From Antedon mediterranea (Eukaryota > Echinodermata > Crinoidea > Comatulida > Antedonidae), in assembly GCF_964355755.1 (NCBI RefSeq), contig NC_092679.1, positions 3,658,001-3,722,000 on the forward strand: DNA of 64,000 nt. The letters run 5' to 3'. The position numbers and the translations under genes are program-made. Position 1 is the stretch's first letter; each line of letters begins with the position of its first letter. The notes beneath the pieces are model-generated. The model saw only the letters and a list, made by a program, of their open reading frames with translations. It was not told where the DNA came from and searched no databases. Positions 11,710 through 39,775 of this stretch are shown here, piece by piece.

Positions 11710-14700
11710 ATGGTTTCTATTTGTACGGCAACCGTTGCTCTCGTTACGATAATTTGGGGTGTTGATACAGGTAAATTGTAGGCTTGTTGTGACATTATTG
11801 ATCTCACATTAGTATAATAATCCATCGTTATAGGCCTATCCATCAATGTCTCTCTGCGTCATGATTTGCAAAAAAAAAACTATGGAACTTGTTCTTGGTT
11901 CTGGTGTAAGCTCCTACGGTACTGGTTCAGGTTAATTTAAAATCGTCTACCATGACAGGTATACCATTTGAACCAAAGGCGTCAGAGACAGGATTAATAG
12001 ATGGACCATCAGAGCCTACTAATTACATCGACTACGCTAAAGCTCTGTCTACACTATTTTATGTGACAAAAAAATGTGATGTGCCCATATACTGTATGAA
12101 CATGAAATTGTCATATCACTACCGTATTTGGACATATCACTGCCATATTTGAGCACATCACACAAACCATGGAGCTATAAAATGTTATAGCTCCATGCAC
12201 AAACCAGTTTGATAGTGTAGACAGAGCTTAGTGATAGGTGTTTAGTGTATACAGTAACAGTGTAGAACCGATCCTTTTGGGACACACCTTCAAGAGACAG
12301 CCCTATAATTCAGGACACCAGGGTAATATATTAAAATTATGGGCAACCCTTATTAAAGGAACACCATGTTAAGACATGTTTGGCCTCGAAGGTATCCCCT
12401 AGTAGTTGTTCTTCTGCTGAATTCATGTATCTCTGTGGGTAGAGGAATGTTTCTATTTAACGAGTAAAATAAGTTAGCTTAAGAAGTATATTACAGTATC
12501 TTATATTCTCTGGTAAGAGTAATTGAGTCAATTACAAAATGCAACATCATTATAATGTTAGGTTATTCATTACTGTTTCTTATTGTAGCATTTGTATTCC
12601 CTAAACGTATGCAGTTAATATTCGAATTAGAATACAATTTTGGTTTTATAATGTATGTATTCCCTTATTGACTAATCAATTAGTATTGTCTAAATGTTCT
12701 ACGGATATGCGTCATAAAAAAATAAAATATTCCTCTACACAATGATGTCTAGTATAACGAATTCTTTTCGGTATTCCGACCTTTTATTATTTCTCATACG
12801 GTTGATGAGTCCATTAAAAGCAAAATTTTAAATAAAAAACCACAAAGAATGTGGGTTAGTTCGGTACCAGTTGGTAATAATAGAATAAAGAACTTGATTA
12901 TTTTGCTAACACGACAGGCATTATTATGAATAAAGGCAGCTATCAGAATTCGACGTGAATACGACGTCCACACAATAGCAATGAATCTATCGTAACTATA
13001 AATAATACGTCAATATGTTTTTAATGAATATATTTATTATTTTGCTTAGTCATTTTCTCTTTTTTAACACACGATGTCTAGGCTATTAAACTGTCAAACA
13101 ATATAGTCAGTTGATGTAATAAATATAGACTATATTCTCTCAAAATATGCATGATAATAAATGTTATTTTGTTTTTATTTCATATACTGCAGCAACGGCA
13201 CAAACAGAGTAAGTGAATGTAGGGAATTTTGAATAATTGTACAAGTATATAAATGAATGGTCAACAACAATAGAACAAATATTAAAGTTTTGTTTTTTTT
13301 TAAATTAAAAAATTTTCAAAAAAATTTTCAGTGTCAAAGTTGATTTTGTTAGCTTAATTAAAAATTACGTCACCAAAGTAACGACTTCATTTTTGTTGGG
13401 GAAGTGGAATTACAAATAAAGGGGAGGGGGATGGTCAATGGTTGATATAAAATGATGAATTTTTGATAATTCAATTCATATTTTATTGGGCTAATTCATA
13501 TAGAAATAAAAACCAGAACATCATTGTTAATACACTGCAGTTTAAAATACAATATTTAAAACAATAGTAAAGTACAGACAATATTTAAAAGTTATAACAA
13601 ATAATTCATATATACAATATACAAATTTGGCAAAGAATAATTGTTGTATCATTTCTATAGTTACAAGAATGTAAGAACGACGTTTGAATTTAATTTGAAC
13701 CAAGTGTACGTTACAGCAGAACCAACCATGGTGGATGATGAGGCAGGGTTTCGATCGTAAGTGCCATACTCATTGTTTTAGGCCTACTTAGTATGTTACA
13801 GTACGTCTGCCGCCTATAGATACATGACTGTGTCTGGCGGTTATAGCATTAGTTGAGTGATAAGAATCCCCGTCCTGTAGGCTAAGTGGAAGGTTGTTCG
13901 TATCCGTTCTTGTTTGGTTAGCCGTTCTCGATTGAGAACTTCAGTCCGTCATTGACTGAAGTTGACATATTGCCTTTGCGTGAGTGAGACCAATTGGTCA
14001 AATATTTTGCCCTACTCTGACGTAATTTTTACTTTATACTAAGTAAGTTTGTGAGTAATTCTCGGGTGGGACTTGAGTAATTGGTTAGATGTTTTGCCCT
14101 ACCCTGACGAGCAAGATACTCCACAGTAGTTAAATACAATTACAACCCTGAGAGAGACCAGCAACGTATGTATCATAGTTATTACATTTTTTGGTGAGAG
14201 ATGATACTGAGATAATGTTCCTAAATGTTCCTAGAATGTACTACCAATTGTTAGACGCCATTTTTAAAAATTGTAATAACAATGTATGTTATCGTTCAGG
14301 TCTGTTATTTCACATATAATGAAAACGTTCAACGCAACTATAGAGGACACTAAAGTAAGTGTGTGTTACCATTATCACCACCATCATAACAACAACATGT
14401 CCAAAGAATTAAGCAATGGTCAGTACAACCATCAGAGCTGACCACATCGACACTAATCACCACCATAATGACCAACATCTATGTACAAGGCATTGGTCAG
14501 TACAGCCATCAGAGCTGACCACATCGACACTAATCACCACAATAATGACCAACATCCATGCACAAGGCGTTGGTCAGTACAGCCATCAGAGCTGACCACA
14601 TCGACACTAATCACCACCATAATGACCAACATCCATGTACAAGGCATTGGTCAGTACTACCATCTGAGCTGACCACATCGTCATCGACACTAATCACCAC

Positions 14701-17700
14701 CATAATGACCAACATCCACGTACAAAGCATTGGTCAGTACATCCATCAGAGCTGACCACATCGACACTAATCACCACCATAATGACCAACATCAATGTAC
14801 AAAGCATTGATCAGTACAGCCATCAGAGCTGACCACATCGTCATCGACACTAATCACCACCATAATGACCAACATCCACGTACAAAGCATTGGTCAGTAC
14901 AACCATCAGAGCTGACCACATCGACACTAATCACCACCATAATGACCAGCATCCATGTACAAGGCATTGGTCAGTACAGTCATCAGAGCTGACCACATCG
15001 ACACTAATCACCACCATAATGACCAACATCCACGTACAAAGCATTGGTCAGTACAGTCATCAGAGCTGACCACATCGACACTAATCACCACCATAATGAC
15101 CAACATCCTTGTACAAGGCATTGGTCAGTACTACCATCTGAGCTGACCACATCGACACTAATTACCACCATAATGACCAGCATCCATGTACAAGGCATTG
15201 GTGAGTACAGTCATCAGAGCTGACCACATCGACACTAATCACCACCATAATGACCAACATCCATGTACAAAGCATTGGTCAGTACAGCCATCAGAGCTGA
15301 CCACATCGTCACCAACACTAACTCACCATCATTGTAATTAATCAACATTACCATATCATCACTATCATTTTATGTACTTTCACTATTATATATTTATATT
15401 TTAGTCTACTCTGTAGCAATGTTAGTATACTTAGGCATACGGGAGTCACGACTTAAAGTTCAGTGAACTTACTGTGACTTCCATCCACCCACATTTAATA
15501 TATGTTATGTTATGTAAATGTAAATGATATATATATATATATATAAGTGAGTGGAAAAAATAAATAAACGAAACGAAACGAATCATGAAACAACACCAAC
15601 ATAATCATAATATATTTTGCTTTTCTTCAGGTTTCGCCCGACTCAAGATGGGAAACGATTCAAACATCTTACAAACTAGTAACGAATATAGAAGAGACGT
15701 ACTCGTTAGCTGTTCGAGATAATATGGAATTAGTAGTAAGTATTTTACCCATTCAATATTTTCGGAGTTGAACCTGGGCTTAATAGGCACTAAGCTAATG
15801 TGCCACTCTAAAATACCAGACAGTATTAACACAGTCTACATTGCGGTACTGTATATATTTAACTTATTTAACAATTATAATTATTTCCCACATTAGAAAA
15901 TCTCTACAGGTAAACGCGTGATAAAAATCGATTTTCGATTCAAAGGGACTTTAGTGTCCACAATGCCAAGCAGACAATTTATACATTGATTATGGCTACA
16001 ATTCACACATTTTGATTCCATGTGATGTTACCATCAAAGATACCATAATTCCGTGAAATATATGAAAACATCAGTGTTGCAAATAGAAGGGCAAGGGTAT
16101 AGTCTGACAATTAGCAGAATGACGAAATATTAAAAAATAAGTCGCATATGTTATGTAGGCCTAATATTTATTGCTATAAACAAAGTAGAGAAGATCAATA
16201 AAGGTGTGCAAGTTAAAGCTCTGTCTACACTATCAAACTAGTTTGACAAAAAAAAGTATGATGTGCCCAAACATAGTAGTGATATTCCCAAATGTGGTAG
16301 TGATATGACATCATCATGTCCATATATGGGCACATCACATGTTTTGTCACATAAAGTTTGATAGTGTAGACCAAGGCTTTAGAAACACAAATGTATGGTA
16401 GCAGACGATGACTCTCGCAAATGATTTAGTTTTTTTTGCTGTTGGGTTGTCTCATTGCAGTAATGGCATATTAGGCCTATATAATAATAATATTACTGTA
16501 TAATAAAAGAGAGGACGGGTGTTTACTAAATAGCTGCGACTTATGGTTATTTTTTGTTCGAGCACTCTAAGAACTATGGATAGAAAGTCCCTGCATTGAT
16601 TTAAACGTCACAGGTATAGCCTGTAGCCTATGTGGGGGTGACTCGAACATTACTCGCGCGTACGTTTTTAAACAAATAAATTAAGCATTTAAATATGACA
16701 AATGATGTTTAAATATGTTTTTTTTAGATTGGTCTTGGCGAGTACGTGTTCTCGTATAATACCATCGTTTTCAAAAGTGATACTAAAAGCCTTATTACGA
16801 AAGAATCTTGGAAAGAAACGTGGTACGAAATAGGTCATCAAATACTCTACGCCTGCATAGTTGCCATTGTCAGTATATCAATATTTGCCATAGCCGTTTA
16901 TTATACAGTAAGTGCAAATACAGTACTGTCGCAGTACAAAACATGGAAGGAGAATTTGTTTTAATAGATCAGTTTGCTATAAAGCTCTGTCCGAACTAGT
17001 GTGATTTTCCCATGGTAGTGATATACCCAAATATGGTAGTGATATGACAACATTATGTCCATATATGGGTACATCACAATGTGGTCACATAAAGTTTGAT
17101 AGTGTAGACAGAGCTTTAGATCCAGTATAGGCTCACTTTCAAATCCAGGATGCAGTTATACTTAAATGTTTAACATCTTAATTTTTAGTGTCGATGGGGA
17201 AAACGACGACCGGCCACTGAAGGACGATACATTTTAAACGAAACCCCGCGCACGAGTAGGGTTATTACGTCTGGTAGCCTTTACTCACCGGAAATGACGT
17301 CAGAAGAGGCAGAAAATAATCTCACAACCACTGTCGAAATGAATGGGCATGCGCAATCGAATGGTGGACTACCAGAAAAAAAGGATAATATAGAAATGGA
17401 GGGAATAAATGTGAGCTATTATTGTTTTTTTGGATATGATTAAATTATTCTGTGTATGTGAGACCATAAAAACTAAGACGACAATGAAAACAATAACAAA
17501 TGTATTTATTTATTTCTTTTATTTCGGATAGTACATCCCTATACAAATCATACAAACAAAAAAACAAAACATTTCACCAGGAATTAACAATATAAACTTC
17601 CACAAAAACAACCTACAATATCCTAAAATATCAATTTGCACCAACGCTGATGTAGGTTGGATTGTGGAAGTACATTAACTACCGGTATGGTTTAATCATA

Positions 17701-18142
17701 CCATTACAACTGTCATGATTTCTTAAACTATTGTTCCTACAATATTCATAGAATAATGAAATAAATAGATTTTTGAAATTATGATGATTGTGGTGTGCGG
17801 TGAAGTTGATGATATGATGATGATAATGATGACGATGACTAAATTGATGATAATAACGATATCGTCGATGAAAACGACGTCGATGGTAATTGACAATGTG
17901 AAAGAAGACAAGATAGTCTTCTCCAGTTTGGAGTCAATTTGATGTCAATCATCGACCCAGTCCATAGTCATCGAATGATACGTGTTATCATTACCATTTA
18001 CCTTCTATTTCAGCAGGAAACATCTCAAGCTAACGGTGGAACAGAAAACAAAGGTTTTGAGAAAGAAGAGAACTCGATGTTTGCCAAACTCGTGTATTCC
18101 GAGTATTCGGTGCCACCAAAATTTTCAGATGAGTTTTTATAA
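11710..18142 (+). CDS. Gene A: single-pass membrane protein with SEA-like ectodomain
   Basis: Eight coding exons: 11710-11770, 13193-13208 (16-nt microexon), 13661-13756, 14300-14354, 15631-15735, 16728-16907, 17189-17410 and 18014-18142. They sum to 864 nt, 287 residues, with all phases consistent. The first exon gives a hydrophobic signal peptide (TVALVTIIWGV). Exons 3-5 form a small alpha/beta extracellular domain that resembles the membrane-proximal domain of genes B and C and looks SEA-like. Exon 6 ends with a membrane helix (ACIVAIVSISIFAIAVYY). Exons 7-8 are a 115-residue cytoplasmic tail, rich in E, N and T, with tyrosine motifs such as LVYSEY near the end. The last acceptor is CAGCAG, so one glutamine may be optional. 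I recognise no named family. A signalling or adhesion role is possible but unproven. Confidence 0.8.
12039..12229. mobile_element. TA-MITE copy, intron 1 of gene A
   Basis: Terminal inverted repeats AAAGCTCTGTCTACACTAT and GATAGTGTAGACAGAGCTT with TA on both sides. The interior carries the TATCACTACC motifs and also a private hairpin, CATGGAGCTATAA at 12167-12179 against its complement ending at 12196. Confidence 0.88.
13193..13208 (+). other. 16-nt microexon of gene A
   Basis: Bounded by CATATACTGCAG and GTAAGT. Its length is 3n+1, changing intron phase from 1 to 2, which is required to join exon 1 to the SEA-like exon at 13661 in frame. It encodes A-T-A-Q-T. Genes B and C have microexons at the equivalent place. 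Confidence 0.75.
13840..14110. repeat. Intronic repeat fragment with hairpin
   Basis: Contains a 10-bp hairpin, AACTTCAGTC against GACTGAAGTT, near 13938-13965. It also has two diverged copies of AATTGG(T/C)-TTTTGCCCTAC about 110 bp apart. Probably an old dispersed repeat; family not recognised. Confidence 0.35.
14370..15310. repeat. 77-bp minisatellite, about 12 copies
   Basis: In intron 4 of gene A. Unit of 77 bp (some with a 6-bp TCATCG insertion) containing GAGCTGACCACATCGACAC and ATAATGACCAACATCCA. The first repeats of GAGCTG are at 14435 and 14512. Short overlapping open frames in the array are by-products of the repeat, not genes. Confidence 0.95.
16215..16380. mobile_element. TA-MITE copy, intron 5 of gene A
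   Basis: Full-length copy: AAAGCTCTGTCTACACTATC at the left, a slightly decayed complement (GATAGTGTAGACCAAGGCTTT) at the right, flanked by TA. Interior has GATGTGCCC, three TAGTGATAT-like motifs and CATATATGGGCACATCACA. Confidence 0.9.
16981..17117. mobile_element. TA-MITE copy, intron 6 of gene A
   Basis: Left end AAAGCTCTGTCCGAACTAG, right end GATAGTGTAGACAGAGCTTT, flanked by TA. Shorter than the copy 600 bp upstream, lacking part of the left half. Confidence 0.9.
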
Positions 18143-20282
18143 TACAGCTAAAAAAAAAGTAGTGCACCCGTGGCGAGAAAAACTACTGATTACTTTTTCG
18201 GCAAATGCGAGAGTTGAGGCTCAGCAATATTAAAATTAAATCTTTAATGAATGAAGTTTTCTCATACGGCGCATGCAAAATACACAAAATACAACATAAT
18301 GGAGTTTAGTAAAGAAAATAAACGTATATTTATCAACTGTATGTGGGTTCAGTCCTGTTAGTAGGCCCATGATTGAACATATAACGTCACGTAAAAGAAA
18401 CGCGCAAACATGTCGTCATGCATGGAAGGATTCACATTGCGGATTGATATATAAAAAAAACCTTTTGGTTCTTTGCACCATTTTCTTTGTTTTCTTTGAC
18501 GTCGTACTATTTAAATACATGTGGACACTAATCTAATGGAATTTGTAAGCACACGGCGGATTTTATTTGTTGTAAAAAATGCCATGAAGAGCAGAGAGAC
18601 GGAGTATTGCTGGCACGGTAAGAGAAGTAGTTTAGTATTAAGAACATTAAGAAATCGGGAAATACAAGAGCTTTCGGATCAAAATACAATAGTAGGCCTA
18701 TGATTAAAAAATAATGTGAACTTGTTTGTTATTGTTGAAGCCAAAATGAAACGCAACGGAACTGTATGAACACGGCATACACTAGCCTTCGACGCTAAGT
18801 AGCACTTTTCAATTTTAAGTGTCAATTGTAACATATCTGTAAAACGAAATTATATAGCTTTTATTTACTCATTTATTTATAAATACACGCGCATGCGTAT
18901 TTGATGGGCGTAGTTAGCCTACCAAACCTTCAGTATGACGTAGTGACAATTACAAATAGCAATAAGTACATGATGATGCATATTATAAATTTGTTTATTT
19001 ATATATTTGTAGATAATTTTAATGGTAATTAACTTACTGTAAAGGAAAACATTATTCGAATTTAATTTTAAAATATGAAATATTTTAAACATCTGCGAGG
19101 ATACCTTGACTGTTAATACTGTATAAATATTATATTATATTGCATAAACAAGTTATTAAGTTATAAGATATTCTAGATATTGATTTAATGTAATTGTTTG
19201 TGTAATGGTAGAGAAGATGTGGGTGAAGGAAGTCAATGGTGTATCATGAAAGGTTATCATGGTACACACCGACTCCCTGTTCAGTTATGAAATATCAGTT
19301 ACGAATCTAGCCAATCAAGTGGGTCATTTGGTCGTATGGGTTTTTTAAAGTTAAATTTTATATAATAAATCTAGTAATTAATAAATGGGTGTGTCCTGAG
19401 ACAACCGTACTGCTGGTCGCGCCCCTGTATCATAAGTTAACAAAGTTCTACAAAGATATCTAGTTTTTAAAAATATTCAAAACAAAAAGAGGTTTGTTGT
19501 CTCGTTGCTTTTTTGTTATCAAAACATAGAATATGGAGATGAATCAGCATTGTAGATTTTTATTGGCCGTTTAGTGCTAAATAAATTTTAATAAAACATA
19601 TTTTATAAAATAATTATTTGGTTTGGCATTTTCAGAATTAAATGAAAAAACGTAGACTTGCTGACTGTATGACCATTTATTATAATTGGAAACGAAAATG
19701 TCCTAATTTTGAGGTACTTATAGAGGAACCATTTTCCTCAAAAACATCATTTAAAAAAACAATGGAGGAAATTTCCTCTATAAAAAAACTATATTACTGA
19801 CATTTTAAAAAAGAATTCATACAAGATTTCCCAGGATAGCCCGAATAATAAGAGCTTATTTCCATTGGTGTGTATATTATGTACCAGTGGCCGTATTTAA
19901 CAATAGATATTTGAAAGATAAATACAAGTATTTCCCTTAATTTATATTCACTTTTAATTGTAAGTGTTTCCCTCAGCCTAAGTGTGAATGGTGAATACGG
20001 CCACAGGTCCATGATGATGTGTACTAAGATCATGACTGAGTAAGAGGTGAGGATTAGTACAGTACACATAGGTCACTGACGTATGTAAACAAAAGAATTA
20101 GCGTCACAAAAAACACTATTCTTAAAATTCAGTGAAATATTTTAAGCTTAATTTAGGTTATCCACTCATGCACACCTTCAGCTCTTCTTTGTCAAGGCAA
20201 TACTATCAAAAATGATAATACAGTAGGTGGTTTTTGATAGTCTTCCCTTCACATTTTGCATGGAAGTAGTAAACGGTCGAAA
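18143..20282. other. Intergenic region between genes A and B
   Basis: No gene seen. AATAAA at 18317-18322 could end gene A. Includes AT-rich sequence, a TATAGAGGAA/TTCCTCTATA inverted repeat near 19720-19785, and a small inverted-repeat element at 19887-20004. Confidence 0.6.
19887..20004. mobile_element. Small inverted-repeat element
   Basis: Perfect 11-bp terminal inverted repeats, GTGGCCGTATT (19887-19897) and AATACGGCCAC (19994-20004), enclosing about 95 bp of AT-rich sequence without coding potential. Probably a MITE; superfamily unknown. Confidence 0.5.
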
Positions 20283-22785
20283 ATGATGGGTTGCAGAGGA
20301 ATGTTATTATCTATGTTGTTCTCTCTTTGCCTTGGCTCCACAACAGGTGGTATGTACTTTTATGTTTTGTATACACTTAGGCCTAGGCCTCAATTGGGAG
20401 GGGTACAGGTGAGGGTCAGAGGTGTGGCCATTACAATGGTGACATGACAACGCGTTTACATAGGCCTATGATAGAATACGATTGTTTCCAATTCTAATTA
20501 TTTATCTTTAAGGTAAATCATGAATGATTCCACCGAACTTTCGAGTTAGAATAACAATAGTGAGGCATGTAATGAATAGGCAAACTGCCTTAAAATGTGA
20601 CATGTTTCTAAAAACTATTTTCATCATCATCAGAACAGAACAGGCAGTTTGCCTATTCATTAAATGTCTCACTATTGTTTTTTTATCTTTAAGACGTAGA
20701 GATAATTATATAAAAAACCTTAATAATAATTCATATGTTTAATAATATAGTCAAAAAATATATATTTACAATAATTACTTATTTCTGATTTATTTTTGTA
20801 GCAGAATATTGTTGAAAAGGTATTTCCTATTATGACTGTCGTTTTGTCTAATAAAAGCTTTGTGGGCCTAAACTTGATTGAATAAAATCACACACGTTTA
20901 ATACAAAGGCTATACAATATTTTATTTACTAATCATAACTTGTCGTTAATCGAACTTCCTTGTTTCTTTTTCATGTCAACCTGATTGTCCTTCTCACAAC
21001 AGCAAATTCGTAAGTTCGTTTGAATATTTATACAGTAATCTATATTTAAAATGTATTTGACAATGTCTTAAGTTCTGTCTACATAATCAAACTTTGTGAC
21101 AACAACATATAATGTGCCCATATATGGACATGCATGTCATGTCACTACCATATTTGAGCATATCACTACCATATTTGGGCACTCTTTTGTCAACTAGTCT
21201 GATAGTGTACAGTAGACAGAGCTTTATGTTAATATGTGATCTATTAATTACCTATATTTTTAGACTAATTTAGATTTTGCTATTCATATAAAAAAAAACA
21301 ATGTTGTTTTTCTTAATAATGTTTCTTGCAGAGGGAGAACTTTCGTCGACACTGAGTTAGAATTTCGTTTAAATTCGTATACAGACGATCCAAGTGGATT
21401 GGTTACAGACGACGGAGAGTTTAAAACGTACGGTAATATTTCTGTTTATATTTTACCTTTTACACAGTTCAAGTGTTGCTTCCAACCAGAAGTGTTAATA
21501 CAATGTTTAAAATATGTTAAAAATGTGCAGTATACAACTTCTCTATCAAGCCATGTTTGTTTCTTCTATTTAATAAAGTTGAATTTCCTTTATCTTTGGT
21601 TTTTAAATTTCAGATCACTATCAGATGATATTAAAACGAAATACAGATTTTCAAGTGAAACCGAGATTAATGAACTAAGGGTAAGGGCAATAGAATGTTT
21701 AATTCTTGCTTATTTAGGAAAACCAAACTCAAAAACATATACTTTATGCAGAAGAGGAAGAAACGTTCTGAAATCAGTTAATCGGCATATCTTGCTTTTT
21801 AACAAACCTTTATGCAATCCAACATCCCAAAATAAATCATAGCGAGCTTTATACAGAAAGTTCTATTTTAAGATTATTAAGATATCCATTTTTATTTTGT
21901 ATTTAGGTTGAAGTTCATCAAGACTCGATCCTGACCATATCTTTTTTATTACGTTTTGATTATTTCAATGAAGATGATACCAAAGCTAAAGAAGCGATGA
22001 TAAAAGAGGTACCGTACGTATTTATATTATTTTTAGATTAGATGTTATTACTTCAATAAAGAAAATTTTGAGTTTCCTCCACTATCAATGACGCAAAAGA
22101 ATTTTTATTTTCAACCATAGAAAGAAATCAAGAGGACGTAACTAGCTTGACTTAAGCTCTGTCTACACTATCACTGTCATGTACCCATATATGGTAGTGA
22201 TATGTCCAAATATGGGCACATCACATTTTGTTGTCACATAAAGTTTTATAGTGTAGACAGAGCTTTAGCTGAGCCTGAAAAGTTGTAATATACCTTTACA
22301 ACAAATGTTGAAAAAGACACCTAAATCAAGTATTCTCACTTTGCATTACAGATGGATGAAGGCCGGTATGAGTTCTTCTTCAAAGACGATCAAATGATAT
22401 CCGTTTCAGGTTCTCTGACTGTCACCAAAGACTGGAAAGAGAACTGGCACGACATGATCCACAGTGTTACAATAATGGTATTGGCATCGCTTGTTGCTAT
22501 TGCGATTTTTACATTTGCAATTTGGTATCTTGTAAGTGTTTTTTAACTTTATTAAAAAAAATTAAATATAATTTACACGTTTGGCACTGTCTTGAATCAT
22601 CAAATTCTGTGATTTGATTGTAAAACACGAATTATAATTATGTTTTCAATGTGTCTCGAATTTCTTCATTACAGTTGGTAAAACGACGCAAGACGAAACC
22701 GGAGCCCATCGTCCACGAATTTACAGCCGAAAACACCAATGTAGGCCTACAATTTGAGGAAGAGGAAGAGGTTGAGGATAAATAA
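20283..22785 (+). CDS. Gene B: short single-pass membrane protein, paralogue of gene A
   Basis: Seven coding exons: 20283-20346, 21003-21009 (7-nt microexon), 21332-21427, 21614-21680, 21907-22008, 22352-22531 and 22675-22785. Total 627 nt, 208 residues. It begins with a signal peptide (MLLSMLFSLCLG); an in-frame ATG at 20256 would add nine residues. The SEA-like part spans exons 3-5 and the membrane helix (VLASLVAIAIFTFAIWYL) ends exon 6. The cytoplasmic tail is only about 36 residues, basic (VKRRKTK) then acidic (EEEEEVEDK). Exon sizes and phases match gene A exon for exon: 96/96, 67/55, 102/105 and 180/180 nt. The donor of exon 3 is taken at 21428 (GTACGG), since only that keeps frame and matches the 96-nt exon of gene A. 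AATAAA at 22781 overlaps the stop. Function unknown. Confidence 0.75.
20553..20679. mobile_element. Fold-back element with 38-bp arms
   Basis: Arms 20553-20590 and 20642-20679 are inverted copies starting AACAATAGTGAG, with about three mismatches. They enclose about 50 bp. Lies in intron 1 of gene B. No coding potential; a fold-back MITE. Confidence 0.8.
21003..21009 (+). other. 7-nt microexon of gene B
   Basis: CAAATTC lies between a pyrimidine-rich acceptor (CCTTCTCACAACAG) and a consensus donor GTAAGT. Its 3n+1 length turns phase 1 into phase 2, which is exactly what is needed to join exon 1 to the SEA-like exon at 21332. Position and phase equal those of the 16-nt microexon of gene A. 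Inferred without transcript data. Confidence 0.6.
21070..21225. mobile_element. TA-MITE copy, intron 2 of gene B
   Basis: Ends AAGTTCTGTCTACATAATC and GTAGACAGAGCTTT, internal CATATATGGACATG and two TATCACTACC motifs. Confidence 0.85.
22154..22266. mobile_element. TA-MITE copy, intron 5 of gene B
   Basis: Short copy: AAGCTCTGTCTACACTATC at the left and ATAGTGTAGACAGAGCTTT at the right, with one TAGTGATATG inside. Confidence 0.9.
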
Positions 22786-28000: not shown

Positions 28001-31000
28001 GGGACATGCTTGGACATAATGTCAGTAATTGCCGTCTGCCGATGTTTACCTGGGTTTAGAGGCGACTATTGCGAAATAACAGGTAAATATTAAAGTATTA
28101 TTTTGTTCTTTTCTAAAAGGGGACCACGGATAGATAGCTAAATCCCAGTATTTCCGTTTTCCTAGTAACTAAACACAGCAGCTTATTAATCGATAAGTAG
28201 TCGGTGATTAACCCATATATATAAAATAAAGGTACTATACCGGAATTAGTTAGTAAACTCACATTTCCTTTCATTAATCTACTTTCTAGTTTCCTTTCAA
28301 ACACCTTAATATGACAGTCCCATATGTTTTGTGACACACAAATATCACTTAAATTTCAAAACAATTGTACGACAAAACTTAAACTTTCCGCCTTCATTTA
28401 TAACCTATAGTCTTCAGCTCTGTCACCACTATTAAAGATTATGTGACACAAAGAGTGATGTGCCCATATATGGACACGATGATGTCATATCACTACCATA
28501 TTTGGGCACATCACACTTTTTTTTGTCAAACTAGTTTGATAATTATTCTAATTGTTTAACAGATGGAAAAGGTTGTGTTGTTAATGGTACAGTTTACAGA
28601 GACACTGAGTTAGTTGACTTTGAATGTTTAAGTTGGTAAGTAAGATCTTCGTCTAATATCATTTGTAGTGGGTCAATTTAGCAAATTCTTTAAATAGAAT
28701 TATGTTTGCATTTAAGAATCTCGAAGTACACACACAAAAACAATTACATTTCGTCATATGATTAATACTATAATACGCGATACTAAAATATCGCAGATAA
28801 TGGATAGCACAAACAACTTTTTTTCGGTTATTTTATCTGTATTTGTTTTTTTTAGTCTTTGTAATGATGGTATACTAGAATGCACCGACAAATGTGGTAA
28901 ATATAACGACAAGTTTTTGTTTATTTTTTACAATTCGAAATTAAATTTTTTTCAATACATGTTTTTCTATATAATGCGTATGTGGTAAGAACCATTGCTT
29001 TATCTTCAATACAAACTTCTCAAACTACTGGTATCCTGCAGTTATTTTATGAAAAAACAGCCCTCTCTTTTCTATATTGTACAGGATTATTTACATTTGA
29101 ATATTTGCATATCTAACACAGGTGACAAACCAGGAGAATGTCCAACTGTAATAGAAGACTTCAACAACACAACTTGCGCAGTGGATCAAGATTGTACAGG
29201 GCAGCGAAAATGCTGCAATCAAACGTGTACTCTGCCTAATTATGGTGAGATTTCACTTTAAATACATCTAAATCATCTCTAGAATGACAGAATACTATCA
29301 GGCTTTAGCGATACCTAATTTACCTATGTTCCACTCGCCGGTAGATTACGATAGTTTTTTTGGGAGTTGTACGAAAAGGTGTGCTGTACATAAGGTGTTA
29401 CAGTACTTCGTTTGTTTGTTTGTTTGTTTGTTTGTTTGTTTGTTTGTTTGTTTGTTTGTTTGTTTGTTTGTATATGCGACTACAATTTTTAAGTTATCAT
29501 TCTGTAAATATGTATATACTTACAGAACATGCCTATAGAAAATCGGCTTATTAATAAATTCACAAAAAAAAGAAGAAAAAGTTTATTCTTTTAACATGGC
29601 CGACATATCAACATGCGCCTTCTGTAGAAATAGTTTGCCAAGTACTTCACTCAGTTTCTGAGTGCTTCCATTTTGAAATGTTAACGCTAATCTATTTCAT
29701 TTTCATAAAGACTCTTTAGCGTGTACTCATGATGGAAGAATTTTACAACGTGGAGACTCGTATCACGAACGTTGCAACTCGTGGTAAGATATATTCACAA
29801 TTACTGTAGGCCTACGTGTCTGAAATCTCGATTTCGTTCTGAGTGTGTAGGATGAGAGTGTAGCGATATATTATTTAAAATGAAAAATCAATAGCTATAG
29901 CCTTTAGAAATAGATCAAAGAGTAAAAACATTACATATTATTTTCAATCTATTTTTCAGTACATGTAATAGAGGAATTTTAGAATGCAGTCGTCTTTGTC
30001 GTAAGTTGTTTGCTATACTTAATATGAAACGCCAAACTATGGAACGCAATACTCGCATAAACAAGCCAAGAGTAAACGAAGTAATTTAGTATAGGCTACA
30101 TTTGATGAAGACAAGTGGAAAAGGTTATGAGTATTACTTGACGGTACATTTATCCTTAATTAATTTTATAGCTGTTAAAAAAGGAGGTTCGTGTCCTATA
30201 AAGTCTTCGGAAACTTTGCATCTGGATTGTAAGCCTAAGTGTCGCGATGACATAGATTGTAATGGAATCGAAAAATGTTGCGGAGATGGTTGTAACGGCG
30301 AATGTATGACACCAATTGAAGGTATAATATGTAGAAAAACTACTATTTTAATAATCACTGTTGTAATCAGCAGCACCATTATCACTGTCAATGTCATCCA
30401 TTTATTGTTGCTTTCTTAGCGAATTCAACATCTTATTGTTTCTTTAATAACCAATGGTACGCGGACAACGACATGTTTTCGTCTGGCTGTCAAAGATGTC
30501 AGTGTTTAAATGGATCCGTTCTGTGTCGAGCACCAATCTGTCCACAGCTGCCTTGCTCAGACCCAATACAGTCGAACGGTGCATGTTGTCCTAAATGCCG
30601 TAAGTAGTAACTGACATTAACTAAGACAACCGCCACTTTCTTACTCGTGCTTCAGATTAAGTTCTATCGGAGAGTGAATAGTTATTCAAATGTTCACACT
30701 TAAACAAAAATTTACATACAAACTTCCTCAGATTGCAGAAAAGTCTACAATAGCAAACTTTAGTTCGGAAAAAACTTAGATTTTGTAAACAAACATTCGG
30801 TAAGGTTTTCTAGACTAGACTTTACGATTGAATAAGACATTAACGACTGTCGAAAGTAAGAGGAGATGAATTCAGTGAATTTATCCAACTATCTTAATGA
30901 CGACAGGTAATTAAATCATGTATTTCAGTCTTAACAAGATTTCTATATACCGTATGATACATGATACATAAATGATTATGTATACTAATTTACATCACAG

Positions 31001-34000
31001 CTTCCCTGTGTATCGATGATCCTTGTTTAAATAGCGGGATTTGCTCTGAAGTTGCTGACGAGTATGTTTACAATTGTACCTGCGTTGGCGGGTACTCTGG
31101 AACGAACTGTGAAGATCCACGTAAGCAAACTTTTTTTGTGTAACCCTTTAATTTGTAATTATTGAAGACTATGAATAAAGTGGTGTCATATGTGATATAA
31201 ATAAACAGTATGGAAGAAGGTTTATTGACGGTACACACGTGCCTCTACCTAGGTAATAGATGTAATAGAAATATTCATATTTTCGACAGCATCAAACTGT
31301 TCTGAGGCAATCTGTTTAAATGGCGGTGTTTGTGTAGAACCGGATTACGACTATAGCAGCAGTGAGCCTCAATGGACATGCCGATGTCCCACTGGATTTG
31401 GCGGAGAAATATGTGAAATACAAGGTAAAATAGCTAGTAAATTATTGCATATCATTGAAAACTAATCTTAAAGAAATAGTGCGGCAGATCAGCAGTAATT
31501 ACTTTTTTAATATATATTTTATCATTATTACTGTTTTTTCAAGATGAACTTTGTAACATGAACAGATGTCAAAATGGAGGAACATGTTATAAAGTATTCG
31601 ACACGATAACGACATGCGCATGCGTAGATGGGTTTACAGGGCCTTCATGTGAACAACGTAAGTTTATTACATTTTTGTTCTGTTGAAATTGACAAACTGA
31701 CGACCAACTCAAAAGTTTACTCGAGGATATTAAACATCGATATTTTAAATGAAGGAAAGAACTTTTTATTATTGTTTTTTATTTAAATAACAGAAAATAT
31801 CTGCCGTAGTCAACCGTGTTTTAATGGTGGAACGTGCATATCTATTTTAAATGCATATTACGAATGCAAATGCCAAGATGATTTCATGGGAGAATATTGT
31901 GAGATGAACAGTAAGTTCTTGCTTTTAGATTGAGAAATGGCGAACAGACAATACAATTATTTTATTAACTTCATATCAAACCGTTGGAGCGGTAATTTTT
32001 CTTATATTTATACATAGTACAGAAATGGTTATACATTTGCAAAATTTCTGTTATATCTACTTCCATTCCATTGTCTATATTACTCTATTATGAAATAATT
32101 CATAATTCTCTTGATTAAAAATGTTTTTTTTAGCTCATAAAAATTGTTCGACTGTGATTTGTGAGAATAACGGTACATGCATAGAAGTTGACTCAGCCAA
32201 GGGATGGCAGTGCCAATGCTCTCCATCTTATGTCGGAGAATTCTGCGAGGAAGAAATCGGTAAAAGTTGTGAAAGTGGAAACAATCAAGTGTTTTTAGTG
32301 ATGATTATAACGATTATGATGATAATAAGTTTAATATTGTGATTGGGCATGATAATGAAAATATGACTTTCTTTCAGAAAATTCTGATTGTTCGACTGTT
32401 GTTTGCCAAAATGGCGGTGAATGTATTGAAGTAGACAGTGTCGGTGATCCCGGTTCCTCATGGTACTGCCGCTGCTCTACTGGAACCAGTGGAAATCTAT
32501 GTGAAATTCAAGGTAATTATAATGACTGCTATAAATTCATCTTCCTAAGAATATAAAATTGCAGATTATCCATGTGTTTCTGGTTATGGCCTTTGTCTTC
32601 ATCCATTTCTTATTATTTTGAAGCTGAGCTTTGTGACGTAAACAGGTGCCAAAATGGGGGTACGTGTTATTTGGTGAATGGTCAAACTTCAGTGACAACC
32701 TGCGCATGCACAGGGGGCTATAGTGGTTCTTCTTGTGATCAATGTGAGTATTGCTATCCAATTTTGTTTCCAATTTAATTCACATCAGATATAATCGCAT
32801 ATTACAATGACAGCAAAGATGGCTAAAGACCATGCACAGATTTGAATTAGAAATATACAAATATAAATTAAAAGAATTAAACTTTTCTTCACTTTTTATT
32901 ATCTTTATTTATATTATTCAAATTTATATTATTATAAAACAGTGGATATTTGCCTTAGTGAACCCTGTCAAAATGGAGGGACTTGCACTCCAGTGTTTAA
33001 CATTTTTTACTCATGCGGTTGTCAAGATGGTTTTAGTGGTGTTAATTGTGAAATTGATGGTACGTATTAATTGATTATTTTTAGACAGATATGTTGTCTA
33101 TGACTTTGCATATATAGGCCTAAGCAAAAATAAACTATTGTTATTAGCATCAGATGTATTAACTTCTTCTTCTTCTTTTAGAAGGACCAGCTAGTTGTTC
33201 AGATGTTGTTTGTCAAAATGGTGGTGAATGTATAGAAGCAACTTTCAATTCACCGTTGTATTGTCAATGCACACCCGAATTCACTGGCGAATTATGCGAA
33301 GAACGAGGTACTACCGAAGACGTTTTCCAATACACATTTTTGATTGGTTGCCCATAACGTCTCTACATTATCCCAATTAGACGTTTTCCAATACACATTT
33401 CTGATTGGTTGCCCATAACGTCTCTACATTATCCCAATTAGACGTTTTCCAATACACATTTCTGATTGGTTGCCCATAACGTCTCTACATTATCCCAATT
33501 AGACGTTTTCCAATACACATTTTTGATTGGTTGCCCATAACGTCTCTACATTATCCCAATTAGACGTTTTTCAATACACATTTCTGATTGGTTATATTAT
33601 CACAAACATAGTCTACTCTTACAAACTTTACCAAATTCAGTTAGAGTTTGGAAACCACAGTGTAGACTTCTCTGTAAACCTGTTTTCTAAACTTTTAAAC
33701 TAAATATAAACTAAGCAAACTTTTTTAAACATTTCTTGACAACCTTTTTAGTTTGCAAACATTTTGGTAAAGTTTTCCTAGTGTAGAAATCGAAATTATG
33801 TCTCATCAAAGTACTGTAAATAGCTATACACAATTCATTTTAAATGTCGGTGTAACACAATTAATTACACATGATTTTGTATTTTAAAGGTAATCTTTGT
33901 GACGTCAACAAATGTCAAAATGGTGGAACGTGCTATAAGATTAGCGAAACATGGACTACCTGCTCGTGTGTAGATGGCTTTACCGGACCATTTTGTGACC

Positions 34001-37000
34001 AACGTTCGTAATAAAAGATTCATTTTATATTACAATGCTTATTATATTACATACCGATGTTCTTCTTCCATTTCATTTTTTGTGTATATTTCGAAAATAA
34101 GGAACAAATCTTTTTTTATAAACAGAAAATATCTGTCTTAGTGAACCTTGTCAAAATGGTGGATCGTGTATTAATACTTTTAACCTTTTTTACTCGTGTA
34201 AATGTCAAGATGGATTCACCGGGATCAACTGTGAAGTTGGCGGTAAGTTCAGTTTCCATCTGATAAATCTCAATCAAATTCTAAGGTATCTGAATCAAAT
34301 AACTGCCCTGTGTGAATCAGCTTCATTGAAAGCAAGTGATGTTTGGACATTTTGTAGGCCTAGCCCACTGTGTACGGACATCTCTTTTTTCATTTCTAAA
34401 AAAAAATTATAAACAAATAAATAAAATAAAATGAAACTTAAAGTTTGCGTATATCGGAGTAGCTGGAACTCGGTAGTCTATTATATGTTTTTCGTTTTAA
34501 GCAGAAGTTCCGATAGACTTGGATTGTTCCATCACGGAATGTCTAAATGGTGGAGAATGCATCAAACCAGATGACTCTGGATCACTTAGTTATCCAGATC
34601 TATGGTTCTGCCAATGTCCTGTTGGATTCCGCGGGAATTTCTGCGAAGAACAAGGTGAGCTATTGAGAGTTTTGTAAACGTAAGGAAAGCTCTGTCTACA
34701 CTATCAAAGTTTATGTGGCTAAAAATGTCATGCGCTCATATATGGACATGATGATGTCATATCACTACCATATTTGGGCAATTCACTACCATTATTTGTG
34801 CACATCACAATTGTTTTTGTTAAACTAGTTTGATAGTGTAGTCAGATCTTTTGGCATTCGGATGTACTTTTTCTGTTTAATTAACAAAAGCATGACTTCA
34901 AGGCAATGTTATTATCTTTTTATATATTTTCAAGATGAACTTTGTGGCTTTAATAGATGTCAAAATGGCGGCACGTGCTATCTTACTGAAGTATCAGGTG
35001 TAACGACGTGCGCATGCGTAGAAGGATTCACTGGCCCTTCGTGTGAACAAAGTAAGTTATCTATCTATATCATTTAATTATTCATTAAAATTATTTCATG
35101 ATTGTAATGAATTGTTTTATTCTTCATTTTAAAAGATCAAAAGAATTGTTCAATAGTTGGTTGTCTGAACAAAGGCTCTTGTATAATAGACGCAACAGAT
35201 GATTGGAAGTGCGAATGCCCAAGTTACTTTAGTGGCGAATTCTGTGAAGAATACGGTAAATATTTAGTAGTAACAAATCTGCAAAAATAACACGTTATTA
35301 AAATATGATTGTGTTGATAAAGTACGCTATTTCGTTTATACAGAACCTTGCATTGGTCAACCTTGTGAAAATGGTGGCCGGTGCCGACCAATAGAAAACG
35401 GATATGAATGCAGTTGCCCCGCCGGAACATCTGGATTTCAGTGCGAAAACACCATTATAGGTAGGGCCTATATCAAATGTTGAATGAATCCGAATATTCG
35501 AAAAAGACCTTCTTCCTTGAAGATCTTTGTAACGTAGTGCATTACTGAACTTTTTATTCCGTAGATCCATGTTTCTTCTCTCCTTGTCTCAACGGCGGCC
35601 GTTGCTCTGCATTTAAAGGATTACCAGATTGTTCGTGTACAGAAGACTTCACTGGACGATTCTGTGAAATATCAAGTAAGGCAGATGTCACACTCTTATT
35701 TCAAATTAAAAGCTTAATAATTTATGTATATCTCGGGTCTATTAAGATGGTGGATATTTAAAAACTGATAATTTATATTTATAGTAAATGAAACGTGTCC
35801 AGATGAAGATCAACCCGTTTCTTGTTTGTTCGATCCCTGTCACGTGACCACCTGTCAAGCTTACCCCAACGCTAGATGCAAGTCAAACTACTGCGGAGGA
35901 TGTAATGCAGAATTCTATGATGAGGATGGAAGTTTAGTGGATTGTTACCCAGAGTGCTTGGCCGGCGTATCTGTTAGATGTGTAATCAATTCGTGTGACG
36001 TCACCACTTGTTCTATAAACAATCCGTCTGCGTATTGCTACGACAACAAATGCGATACGAAATGTAAACCAGTGTTTGTGATAGGCAACAATGAGCTTGC
36101 AATGTGTAATTTGTGCTCAAACCCACTGCCATGTCCGATTGACCCGTGCAATGCTTGTACGTCGATTCCCAGAGGAGCAGAATGCCGTGTGGACACGTGT
36201 ACAAGTTGCATAGCAGAACTTTACGATTCCGACGGAACAAAAATAGGAGAGTGTCCGGACACGATGCAACAATGTTCGCCAGGTCTTCCTTATGTTCCAT
36301 GTTTACACGACCCTTGTCAGGGTATCGTATGTCCTGGTTACACAGAAGCAGTCTGTAAAGCAACCTACTGTGGAAAATGCAATTATGAGTTTGTCGATCC
36401 GGCTTCTGGTGATCGTGTAGAATGCAATGCGTGCCCTAATAATGAGCCCGTGTACCGGTGTGCATCAGACCCGTGTGCGACGGCCACGTGTTCTGCGCAT
36501 CCTGATGCCGTCTGCCAAGTTATTCAGTGCGGATCTTGTTCTGCAGAGTTTCTATTGAGTTCGGGTGAAGTTGCGGACTGTACAGGTAACCTAGCTTAGT
36601 CTACAATAGCATAATTCTTCAACATTTTTGTTTGCAAACTCTTTCTTGAGGTGGAAAAACTAAAAACTAAACTACTACTAGATAACCGCAAACTGTTGTA
36701 GTTTAGGCCAGTTGATAAACTTCAACAAACTGCAAAAAGTTTCAGAAGTTAGGTCGTTCACTTTAGCTTGACCAACTAGAATAGTGTAGACAGGAATTAT
36801 TTACAAACTTCTCCAAACTGGTAATCTCGAAGTTTGCAAAAGTTTGGTAAAGTTTGCTAGATCTTAACATTTGCATTTTTCGAAACATGAAATGAAGTTA
36901 ATGTACTGTATATAATACTCTTCCTTAGATTATTGTAAAGAGAATAAGTGCAGATACGGTTCCAAATGCCACTCTATATCTGCTGGCTACTTCTGTGAAT

Positions 37001-39616
37001 GTCCAGCCTTTAAACGTGGAGAGTTCTGTGAAGAAGATTTCTGTGAACGAAATGGACACACATATACAATTGGAGAAACTTTGGATTCTGATGACGAATG
37101 TAATAAATGGTACGTATTTACTTTTCGATAGAGTGGCAACCATGCTGTGTGTATGATTGCAGTTTTTGCTCATAAACTTTTGAACGCTGCTAATGTTTTA
37201 AATTAAAATCATGAAACCGACTATCTGCAATGTTTTTTTCTAGTATTTGTGGGAAAGAAGGTGCATGGAAGTGCACAGAAAAACGTTGTGGTGAGTAATA
37301 TATTAGGCTAACCATTTGAGATATTATCATATTGTGTATGGAAACATGGAAGAGTCGCTCAACCATAAACATCTGACACTATTCTGTCGTTTTCTAGGTT
37401 CAACGTGTATAGATCGAGGTCAGACATATTATGCAGGTGATCAACGAGATTCTGAAGACGGTTGTAACACCTGGTAAATTATGTTAATATTATATTATTA
37501 TATTTTGAATTATGCTAATAGTAATATAACCTTTTTGGTACAATCGTCTATCGATGAAACAGAATGACGGCAATATTTAGAAGGTTTCTGGTTAACATAC
37601 CGTATATTCAGTAAAGTTTTAGAAGTTTTTAAGCCTACTTAGAGTACATAAACATTTATTTCTATAGTTTTTGTACCGAAGAAGGGGATTGGGGTTGTAC
37701 AGAAATAGCTTGTAATGGTAATATACATTTATTATATTTTTAAATTTTAACTGCAACATGGCTTGTATAAAAGTGGTACAGCAAGTACTGACAATAAGAA
37801 GCCTGAATTTAAATGGTGGTCGTAATATAGTCGCATTCCAGTTCACATGTTAACTGCATTTAATACCGTATTAAATGTGTTATGTTTTTCTGTGATTTTA
37901 TAGTATATGTTTATATATATATATATATATTTATAACATGCTTTGTTTTTTTTAAATTTCATTTTCGGCTGATCAAACTAGATATGTAAGTATATGATTT
38001 TTAAGCTATTAACTATTCAAATTTAGGCCTAAACTAAAAATATATAGAACAAACAAATAGAAGGAAAGATTACAAAATAAAAGGTTAACAATTATACAGC
38101 AATTCCACGTCGTCATCATAAACAGGTTTCTCATCTGCTAGTCCAAAATTTGTGTGTGTATGAATTCAAAAATTCAATTAAGACTAAGATGTAACGTATT
38201 AATCGATTAAAATGTAATCATTTTTTATTCGTTTTAGAACAATAGTTGAGTTGACATTTCACCTTGATTACAATTTTGCAAATATTGAAGATGATATCGA
38301 AACATTCAAACAGTAAGTAAACCTTAAATATAAAAAATCAAATAGAAAGAAATAAATACAATTAAAAATACGGAGACATTAATTAAATGAAATAACCATT
38401 AAATTATATTTTTCAGGAGCTTACGGCTGGACTTGGCTAAGCAACTATCTCTTCCAGTAACATCATTAAGAGATTTTCGGGTAGGTACCTTAACTTCGTA
38501 CTTCGATCGTATTAGTTGAAACAAAGTTTTAGCTATCATGATTCAATTTAAGCTAATGCCGATGTCTCATATATATGTTATCTTGTAGCTATCGCCCGGT
38601 AGTATAGTCGTTGAATTCAAACTTGTTAGCAGTGACGAACTAGCGGAAACAGACGTGACACAGGTTGCTGCTGACATCGTGAAACAGGTTGGTTTTTATT
38701 GGTTGATTGAACTTGTTTATGCAAATGTTTATATTACAGGTAATACCTTATTGGTTGGTTTGACTTTTTATGCAAATTAGCTGTAATCAATACCGTATCT
38801 ATTTATTTCACTATTGATTATTTTGATACCTTTTAGCTTGATAACGAATATATTTTCACATTTGACGGACAAGATATTATGGTTATTCCTGACACCGTGA
38901 CCGTAATATCAGAACCTGAAGCAATCAAGAAAAACAATACGAATTTGGAACTTATTATTGGGGTTACTGCCGGGGCCGTTGGTCTCATTGCTGCTGTTAT
39001 CATATTTTTAATTGTAAGTTTTTTTTTCTCTCAAAATAGTGGTTCTGTCTCGGGTTATCATAATTAGTATTTTACTTTTTCTTAAGATTTTATTTCGTGA
39101 TATACATCAAAACTTCACACGATATAAAACATGTTGAAACTGATGATCTCTACACAAACCCACCCATTACTGCGCATGTTCTAACCGGCAAAACATGTAT
39201 AATCATTACCGTATACTATTGATATATTTAGATTAGAAACAAAAGAAGAAAAGAGTGTAAGTTGCCTACTACATCTAAAAAGGTAAGTCTATAGTTTCCT
39301 TTTACTTGTGTTCCTTCAAGGCTGATTTTTCACTACGAAATTGTTCCGCAGGAGTCGCTTATACGCATGCGTAGAGAGGGATTTGGAAGATGGAAACATG
39401 AATACGCATTCATTCTTTGATTTCCATGTAAAGAGGATTCACCGCAGCACCAGTCTCCGGCAAATTTTTCAGGAAACTAACAAATAACACTATCAGATAT
39501 ACAAGCAATCAATTGTCTTTTATTAATAATGTAATCACTTTCATTCATGTTCACTCTATTGGTTTCAGACTTCTACGTATCCCAATGCCAATTTTGTACC
39601 TGATGCAGTAAACTGA
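25007..39616 (+). CDS. Gene C: giant VWC/WAP/EGF membrane protein with SEA-like stalk
   Basis: I model 42 coding exons, 5034 nt, 1677 residues, all phases consistent. Starts: 25007, 26006, 26606, 26778, 27267, 27688, 27960, 28563, 28856, 29122, 29711, 29960, 30172, 30420, 31001, 31290, 31544, 31794, 32134, 32378, 32624, 32943, 33182, 33890, 34126, 34505, 34935, 35136, 35344, 35565, 35785, 36929, 37244, 37398, 37668, 37982, 38238, 38417, 38589, 38837, 39232 and 39569. Order: signal peptide ([12 protein letters not shown]); VWC; EGF; VWC; WAP; EGF; VWC; WAP; VWC; WAP; VWC; 16 EGF; five cysteine-rich repeats; EGF; two VWC; SEA-like domain; membrane helix; 35-residue basic tail. Likely a cell-surface adhesion or ligand-binding protein. 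The membrane end is paralogous to genes A and B. The donor of the exon ending 34003 is GTTCGT, weak but supported by phase. No named orthologue recognised. Confidence 0.82.
25095..25127. repeat. 33-bp palindromic mini-element, copy 1
   Basis: CCTGGGAAGAGTGA and TCACTCTTTCCTGG nearly self-complementary around a 5-nt loop. Related hairpins are at 56503-56532 and 57603-57636. Confidence 0.6.
26231..26331 (-). mobile_element. tRNA-like SINE or pseudogene
   Basis: On the minus strand, A box TGGCTTGGTGGTTATGATG and B box GGGTTCAAGTCCC in tRNA spacing, in a 101-bp unit bounded by a 13-bp inverted repeat (GGAGTGGAGTTGT at both ends). The extended terminal pairing is longer than a tRNA acceptor stem. 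Sits in intron 2 of gene C. Confidence 0.65.
27529..27658. mobile_element. TA-MITE copy, intron 5 of gene C
   Basis: AAGATCTGTCTACACTATC at the left, interior GATGTGCCCAAATATGGTAG and CATATATGGGCACATCACA, decayed right end TTTGATAATGTACATA. Ends about 30 bp before the WAP exon at 27688. Confidence 0.85.
28416..28542. mobile_element. TA-MITE copy, intron 7 of gene C
   Basis: Left end decayed (AGCTCTGTCACCACTATTAA), interior GATGTGCCCATATATGGACA and CATATCACTACCATATTTGG, right side TCAAACTAGTTTGATAA. Confidence 0.85.
29405..29575 (-). mobile_element. Retrotransposon-tail fragment with (TTTG)n
   Basis: A (TTTG)n microsatellite at about 29410-29471 is followed by sequence that, read on the minus strand (GAATTTATTAATAAGCCGAT, then TAACTTAAAAATTGTAG and (ACAAAC)n), matches the body at 10900-11040. 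So both are copies of one repeat family in opposite orientation. Lies in intron 10 of gene C. Confidence 0.6.
30690..30835. repeat. Diverged copy of an AAACTTT-rich repeat family
   Basis: Contains AAACATTCGGTAAGGTTTTC and TCTAGACTAGAC, resembling the better copies at 33605-33790 and 36625-36872. All three lie in introns of gene C. Confidence 0.35.
33319..33590. repeat. 61-bp tandem repeat, about 4.5 copies
   Basis: Units begin at 33319, 33380, 33441, 33502 and 33563 (partial), each containing GACGTTTTCCAATACACATT and TGATTGGTTGCCC. It starts 11 bp after exon 23 of gene C. Copies are nearly identical, so the expansion is recent. Confidence 0.95.
33605..33790. repeat. AAACTTT-rich dispersed repeat, copy in intron 23
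   Basis: Starts TACAAACTTTACCAAATTC and ends TTTGCAAACATTTTGGTAAAG, giving inverted ends AACTTTACCAAA/TTTGGTAAAGTT. A related copy is at 36625-36872, ending TTTGCAAAAGTTTGGTAAAG. Probably a MITE family distinct from the TA-MITEs. Confidence 0.5.
34686..34851. mobile_element. TA-MITE copy, intron 26 of gene C
   Basis: AAAGCTCTGTCTACACTATC at the left, GATAGTGTAGTCAGATCTTT at the right, interior CATATCACTACCATATTTGG. Confidence 0.9.
35785..36585 (+). other. Gene C: 801-nt exon of five cysteine-rich repeats
   Basis: One large exon encodes five tandem repeats of about 50 residues. The clearest are [14 protein letters not shown] with [15 protein letters not shown], and [14 protein letters not shown] with [16 protein letters not shown]. 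Consensus: DPC-x(3)-C-x(6)-A-x-C-x(4)-CxxCxxxF-x(6)-G-x(3)-C. Repeat 2 is shifted (CDTKCKPVF) and repeat 3 has CTSCIAEL. This module is unlike VWC, WAP or EGF, and I cannot name it with confidence. In contrast to the one-module-per-exon rest of the gene, all five share an exon. Confidence 0.8.
36625..36872. repeat. AAACTTT-rich dispersed repeat, copy in intron 31
   Basis: Many AAACT/AGTTT words and an end TTTGCAAAAGTTTGGTAAAG shared with the repeat at 33605-33790. It also has AGTGTAGACAG, recalling the TA-MITE end. Confidence 0.45.
36929..37717 (+). other. Gene C: EGF plus two VWC modules (exons 32-35)
   Basis: Exon 32 fuses an EGF module ([12 protein letters not shown]) to the first half of a VWC module ([13 protein letters not shown]) in one 181-nt exon. 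Exon 33 completes it ([11 protein letters not shown]). Exons 34-35 make a second VWC ([12 protein letters not shown] with [11 protein letters not shown]). As in exons 2-3, 8-9 and 11-12, the intron splits the TGT cysteine codon after two bases. Confidence 0.85.
37982..37985 (+). other. Candidate 4-nt microexon of gene C
   Basis: Exon 35 ends in phase 1, but the SEA-like exon at 38238 must start in phase 2; direct joining gives a stop after two codons. A 3n+1 exon is therefore needed. ATAT between CTGATCAAACTAG and GTAAGT fits and has the best donor, giving D-I-T-I-V-E-L. Weaker alternatives are 7 nt (TTCACAT, before GTTAAC) near 37848 and a 28-nt exon near 38127-38154. The need for such an exon is firm; which one is used is not. 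Confidence 0.5.
38238..39616 (+). other. Gene C: SEA-like domain, membrane helix and tail (exons 37-42)
   Basis: Exons of 75, 64, 99 and 177 nt with phases 2-2, 2-0, 0-0 and 0-0 match those of genes A and B. The domain runs [11 protein letters not shown], a helix (LRLDLAKQL), a strand ([10 protein letters not shown]), a helix ([12 protein letters not shown]) and a strand (EYIFTFDG). That alternation suits a SEA-like fold, although no GSVVV cleavage site is present. The helix [20 protein letters not shown] crosses the membrane. Tail RNKRRKECK is a stop-transfer signal; the protein ends FVPDAVN. Confidence 0.75.
39315..39440. mobile_element. Diverged half-copy of the 60145-60305 MITE
   Basis: GATTTTTCACTACGAAATTGTTC, then ATACGCATGCGTAGAGAGGG and AAGATGGAAACATGAATACG, parallel the left end and interior of the element at 60145-60305 read on the minus strand. 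It lies in the last intron of gene C. Confidence 0.6.
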
Positions 39617-39775
39617 GAAATCAAAGTTGGAGAACATATCCTAATACAGAGAAATTTGAGTGTAGACTGCTTTTTGTTGGAATGTGAAACATTTTATACT
39701 GTATACTACTTTGTGTGCTAATTTGTATATTGTGAATAATAATTGTGAATATTAATTATATAATAGTTATTACTA

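Follow-up and report, generated by a model that had tools for sequence, protein, structure and literature searches.

Three predicted genes, A, B and C, lie head to tail on the plus strand of the 64,000-nucleotide stretch of Antedon mediterranea DNA analyzed here (contig NC_092679.1; "the window," whose numbering is used below unless a chromosome is named). Rebuilt exon by exon, gene A occupies 11710-18142 (8 exons, 287 aa), gene B 20283-22785 (7 exons, 208 aa), and gene C 25007-39616 (42 exons, 1677 aa). Neighboring models are 2.1-2.2 kb apart and their introns are GT-AG without exception; the donor of gene C exon 24 (GTTCGT) leaves a small doubt on that model. Close spacing on one strand, with exon joins predicted from DNA, would also suit a single complex gene of which A, B, and C were alternative promoters or terminal exons. 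Such an arrangement is very improbable, given that each of the three has its own signal peptide, membrane-proximal exon cassette, transmembrane (TM) helix, cytoplasmic tail, and stop codon, and that four further genes (D to G) are complete, separate copies elsewhere.

Gene A begins with a signal-peptide exon at 11710-11770 (phase 0-1, donor GTAAAT), followed by a 16-nt microexon (13193-13208) and four cassette exons: 13661-13756 (96 nt, phase 2-2), 14300-14354 (55 nt, 2-0), 15631-15735 (105 nt, 0-0), and 16728-16907 (180 nt, 0-0), the last of these encoding the final strands of the domain together with the TM helix. As argued below, they are the likely counterparts of EPCAM exons 4, 5, 6, and 7, respectively. 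A cytoplasmic tail of 116 aa is encoded at 17189-18142 (exons 17189-17410 and 18014-18142). The intron between cassette exons 2 and 3 also holds a 77-bp minisatellite (11.5 copies, 14413-15312).

Gene B follows the same plan, with a signal-peptide exon at 20283-20346 (an alternative end at 20349 leaves the phase unchanged), a 7-nt microexon at 21003-21009 (the sole candidate of the tested kind in a 985-nt stretch), cassette exons at 21332-21427 (96 nt, 2-2), 21614-21680 (67 nt, 2-0), 21907-22008 (102 nt, 0-0), and 22352-22531 (180 nt, 0-0, with the TM helix), and a tail of 36 aa at 22675-22785. Gene C has its signal peptide at 25007-25061 (phase 0-1) and then a head of 34 exons (26006-37717), which includes a single 801-nt exon of Cys-rich repeats, each of about 50 aa (35785-36585, phase 1-1). 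Its putative microexon is 4 nt long (37982-37985). The cassette exons of C lie at 38238-38312 (75 nt, 2-2), 38417-38480 (64 nt, 2-0, the length of human EPCAM exon 5), 38589-38687 (99 nt, 0-0, encoding PGSIVV, a possible SEA self-cleavage motif), and 38837-39013 (177 nt, 0-0, with the TM helix); a 32-aa tail follows at 39232-39616 (exons 39232-39282 and 39569-39616). The rebuilt models thus reproduce all the cassette exon lengths and the identical phases given by an earlier sequence-only reading, along with its motifs before the helix (YVFSY, YEFFF, and YIFTF in A, B, and C) and the unequal tails of A and B, which it had put at about 115 and 36 residues.

The microexons are predicted because the phases demand a phase 1-2 piece ahead of the cassette. 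In A, B, and C this piece sits between an AG acceptor and a GTAAGT donor, a kind of site with a background rate of 0.047 per kb in the window. Six of the seven family genes have a microexon ahead of the cassette; in G it was not found, and the exon ahead of the G cassette seems to end in phase 2.

Other features of the window lie around and between these genes. Tandem arrays occur at 10000-10847 (68-bp unit), within a gene C intron at 33318-33593 (61-bp unit), and directly downstream of gene C at 39766-40732 (18-bp unit, about 53 copies). A 20-bp motif, AAGCTCTGTCTACACTATCA, has 15 sites over 3889-59177 at up to 3 mismatches, with 0.01 expected; its copies often form inverted pairs about 100-190 bp apart, resembling the ends of small mobile elements. 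A SAM domain is encoded at 2102-2437 on the plus strand (SAM_4, E 2.3e-29), and an OAR motif at 59732-60070 on the minus strand (Pfam E 2e-6) suggests that a paired-like homeobox gene probably ends there.

Common descent of the three anchors is argued for by both alignment and exon plan. Ectodomain alignments exceed shuffled controls with Z = 5.2 (A-B), 5.4 (A-C), and 3.8 (B-C), and the TM exons of A and B retrieve each other genome-wide at E ~3e-4. Pairwise identity is merely 22-27%, and hydrophobic patterns are common to all SEA-like domains, as would suit independent gain of similar anchors by A/B and by C with shared phases by coincidence. Such a coincidence has almost nothing to recommend it against the alignments and the genome-wide A/B match, or against phases common to five consecutive exons in A, B, and C and to the four coding cassette exons in D to G. 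The proposal of a family founded on duplication of stalk and membrane anchor is borne out.

That family extends beyond the window. Single cassette exons used as queries against the genome of this one species (18 contigs, 354 Mb), which its bindin gene (E 2.3e-28) marks as that of an echinoderm, recovered genes D, E, F, and G, and all seven members lie on one chromosome (C10) in clusters at 3.67, 4.41, and 22.9-23.0 Mb. Genes D and E are on the plus strand (ends at C10:4422822 and C10:4411050); the minus strand carries the F cassette (C10:23032241-23030386) and gene G (C10:22942907-22941272). Their cassette exons measure 72-78 nt (2-2), 64 nt (2-0), and 93-102 and 189-210 nt (both 0-0), so that the second cassette exon is 64 nt in C, D, E, F, and G alike. 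A genome search with a consensus TM exon found six of the seven members at E < 0.02 and no other match at E < 1, and the detectable family is thus limited to C10; weak members may have escaped the search. The picture of a local family accordingly holds for the clustering of A, B, and C and fails where it implied an exclusively local one, since D to G have the same exon plan at other places on C10. In a tree of the members, A and B are sisters (93/93), and the remaining branches are without resolution and without a reliable root. Long open frames like those of Gypsy-type and LINE-type retroelements were also seen beside gene D (C10:4425678-4429571, L014) and inside the head region of gene F (L030-L031).

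Variation among the members is concentrated in what precedes the cassette. A and B are headless, their phase 0-1 signal-peptide exon running straight to the microexon. The head of C contains EGF, VWC, and WAP modules by Pfam, as well as pacifastin-like half-modules and the Cys-rich repeat exon, for which no Pfam family scored above the cut-off and nothing was found in NCBIfam (where it was the sole query). The large VWC/WAP/EGF head described previously is thus present, at about 1490 rather than about 1400 residues. The introns of this head are in phase 1, except for phase-2 introns within the half-modules. Read from open frames rather than full gene models, the heads of D, E, and G carry EGF and VWC-like half-modules, and that of F carries WAP, antistasin, Cys-rich repeats, and thyroglobulin-1. 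The Cys-rich repeat type of about 50 residues is common to C and F (F exons within C10:23024001-23054000), and the thyroglobulin-1 exon of F (Pfam E 6.9e-15) lies directly before the microexon.

Since the outer head boundaries are in phase 1, head changes are frame-neutral. The proposed mechanism is that modules ending in phase 1 (EGF, VWC, WAP, thyroglobulin-1, Cys-rich repeats) would enter or leave the gene downstream of the signal-peptide exon and upstream of the cassette; because the cassette begins after a phase-1 intron, modules could come and go without breaking the frame. Exchange of this kind would explain the headless A and B, the large head of C, and the thyroglobulin-1 domain before the F cassette. 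Whether C kept or gained its head had been left undecided; an ancestral head now appears more likely than a gain by C, and head loss in A/B would be the simpler reading because five of the seven members are headed and the headless pair are sisters, in a tree that has no reliable root.

The anchor domain itself is best characterized by a fold model of C, built from window sequences only (three sequences; pLDDT 68, pTM 0.61), in the order strand-helix-strand-strand-helix-strand-strand. A Foldseek search of 350,542 PDB chains with this model gave human EpCAM and Trop2 at ranks 1-6 (best E 9.7e-4), with IA-2 ectodomains next. VIA with the same model gave Z scores of 8.9 for Trop2 and 8.8 for EpCAM over 99-101 residues, with SorCS2 level with EpCAM at 9.0 and thyroglobulin and dystroglycan at 6.5-7.7. 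On its own, the predicted fold of C supports a place within the SEA group, somewhat favoring EpCAM. The B model is of low confidence (pLDDT 48) and a structure search from it was uninformative. The domain had been called SEA-like from the outset, which the predicted fold upholds for C; the Pfam SEA model (PF01390) matches none of A, B, and C, nor any of the seven A-G domains, and its matches in the genome are located away from the A-G cassettes. Sequence searches of Pfam and the PDB gave neither a SEA nor an EpCAM match for the anchor; this says little, since even a domain of this genome that Pfam does recognize as SEA retrieves no SEA structure in the PDB by phmmer. Against four SEA sequences, hhalign aligned just a short segment at the GS motif. 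The self-cleavage motif, GS followed by three hydrophobic residues, is present in sequence as GSIVV in C and E; F has GSIKV, and A, B, D, and G lack it.

Intron positions provide a second line of comparison. For EPCAM, introns are located at c.425/426, 491/492, and 555/556 by splice mutations (PMC7530495) and at 858/859 by deletions (PMC3765447). From these positions the introns have phases 2, 2, 0, and 0; exon 4 is 66 nt (2-2), exon 5 is 64 nt (2-0), and exons 6 and 7 together are 303 nt with phase 0 at both ends. The intron 6 boundary we take to be c.657/658. Across A to G, the cassette introns agree in phase with EPCAM introns 3-7. Positions can be compared in F, which BLASTP aligns with EpCAM along 210 aa with 26% identity (E 2e-5 as a single comparison, thyroglobulin-1 included); the extracellular part of the EpCAM sequence used agrees with PDB entries apart from a few residues at N-glycosylation sites. 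In this alignment, made blind to introns, four of the five introns (3, 5, 6, and 7, with intron 6 at its presumed position) coincide to the column, and intron 4 lies next to a gap with an offset of five columns. In the hhalign register, read by eye, intron 4 coincides as well.

Sequence similarity to EpCAM is weak once the thyroglobulin-1 domain of F is set aside. With F as the query, the phmmer alignment to Trop2 ran unbroken from thyroglobulin-1 through the TM helix, while those to thyroglobulin and saxiphilin covered the thyroglobulin-1 repeat only; the F cassette without thyroglobulin-1 had no match in a PDB sequence search. Likewise, the A-G profile had no EpCAM among its PDB sequence matches, A alone had no similarity to EpCAM and joins through B and the exon plan, and hhalign against EpCAM/Trop2 gave P 0.0018 with a probability of just 15%.

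This weak similarity, the good VIA alignments to SorCS2, thyroglobulin, and dystroglycan regions, and the place of IA-2 behind EpCAM/Trop2 in the Foldseek list speak for a generic SEA-TM family with no special tie to EpCAM, whose intron pattern would be ancient and common to many SEA-TM genes. We consider this unlikely. Our intron comparison covered EPCAM and several canonical SEA domains inspected in the same genome, and these domains have other exon plans, with the whole SEA domain in a single exon (L001) or spread over two (L002-L004). Moreover, EpCAM and Trop2 fill all six of the top Foldseek ranks, and thyroglobulin-1 directly ahead of the F cassette is EpCAM's own order. A search of the literature on SEA intron phases found nothing, and the IA-2 family, sought as an intron control, had no match over the cut-off in the genome.

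Gene neighborhood was also considered. The window has two K2P genes, for two-pore-domain potassium channels, adjoining gene C at 42160-43392 (+) and 44142-45654 (-), and human EPCAM lies near KCNK12; we claim no synteny on this basis, as the two genes are closest in the PDB to TASK2 and TRAAK/TREK rather than to THIK. MutS genes were found on C1, C6, C7, C9, and C11 but not on C10, and the linkage of EPCAM to MSH2 in human is thus not observed here.

We regard homology between the anchor and EPCAM exons 4-7 as very likely. No described family had been recognized in the sequence-only reading; the fold of C, the intron positions and phases, and the domain order of F make the anchor recognizable as related to EpCAM/TROP2. 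Thyroglobulin-1 directly before the CD is absent from A, B, and C by Pfam and present only in the paralogue F, so we do not class A, B, and C among the EpCAM genes, with which they share the anchor. Overall, we think it probable that A, B, and C encode type I membrane proteins and belong to a family of seven members in which one EPCAM-like cassette carries interchangeable heads. The cassette would consist of a microexon, three SEA-like-domain exons, and an exon for the last strands and TM helix, followed by tail exons, and may serve as a membrane pedestal presenting adhesive or protease-inhibitor-like heads. Judging by the GSIVV motif, C and E may self-cleave into a non-covalent heterodimer; in A, B, D, F, and G any shedding would be by outside proteases, as in EpCAM. 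A and B could be partners or decoys of headed members.

A 2024 study found that TACSTD/TROP genes first appear in vertebrates, with none in invertebrates (PMC10797630). On the present evidence it is reasonable to suppose, with somewhat more reserve, that EpCAM/TROP2 is the vertebrate survivor of a deuterostome-or-older family with a fixed anchor and exon-shuffled heads. Echinoderms would still have a range of such forms, among them anchors with no head, giant mosaics of EGF, VWC, and WAP, and an EpCAM-like form with thyroglobulin-1. Our searches were of Pfam, PDB, and NCBIfam, and automated annotation in other databases may already use EpCAM-like names. Both EpCAM and Trop2 rank among the major markers of carcinoma and serve as drug targets; if the proposal is true, EpCAM gains an invertebrate relative, its anchor predates vertebrates and is the old part while the head is the exchanged part, and the origin of EpCAM signaling becomes testable in echinoderms.

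Several known systems invite comparison. The SEA domain of MUC1-type transmembrane mucins belongs to the same fold group, with the TM helix adjacent and the GS-hydrophobic triplet matched in C and E; unlike those mucins, the present family has no Pfam SEA match and an exon plan different from that of the canonical SEA genes inspected in the same genome, and no Ser/Thr/Pro-rich mucin region was found in A and B (short domain only) or in C (Cys-rich modules). The IA-2/PTPRN ectodomain and the membrane-proximal regions of SorCS2 and dystroglycan have a comparable fold in searches with the predicted model, with partner domains that differ from those found here. For EpCAM, a review reports no significant sequence similarity of its CD beyond its own family, and cutting of the CD by outside proteases, with no GS self-cleavage motif (PMC7349879). 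Unlike EpCAM, A to G have variable or absent heads, GSIVV in C and E, an extra microexon before the cassette in most members, and, in A, the long tail. The resemblances are these: EpCAM (EPCAM/TACSTD1) and TROP2 (TACSTD2) of the GA733 family likewise join a SEA-like membrane-proximal domain to a TM helix, EPCAM exons 4-7 share the cassette phases of 2-2, 2-0, 0-0, and 0-0 and the 64-nt second exon of C to G, an intron falls at the TM/tail boundary, the juxtamembrane residues are basic, and, as in F and unlike A, B, and C, thyroglobulin-1 stands ahead of the SEA-like domain.
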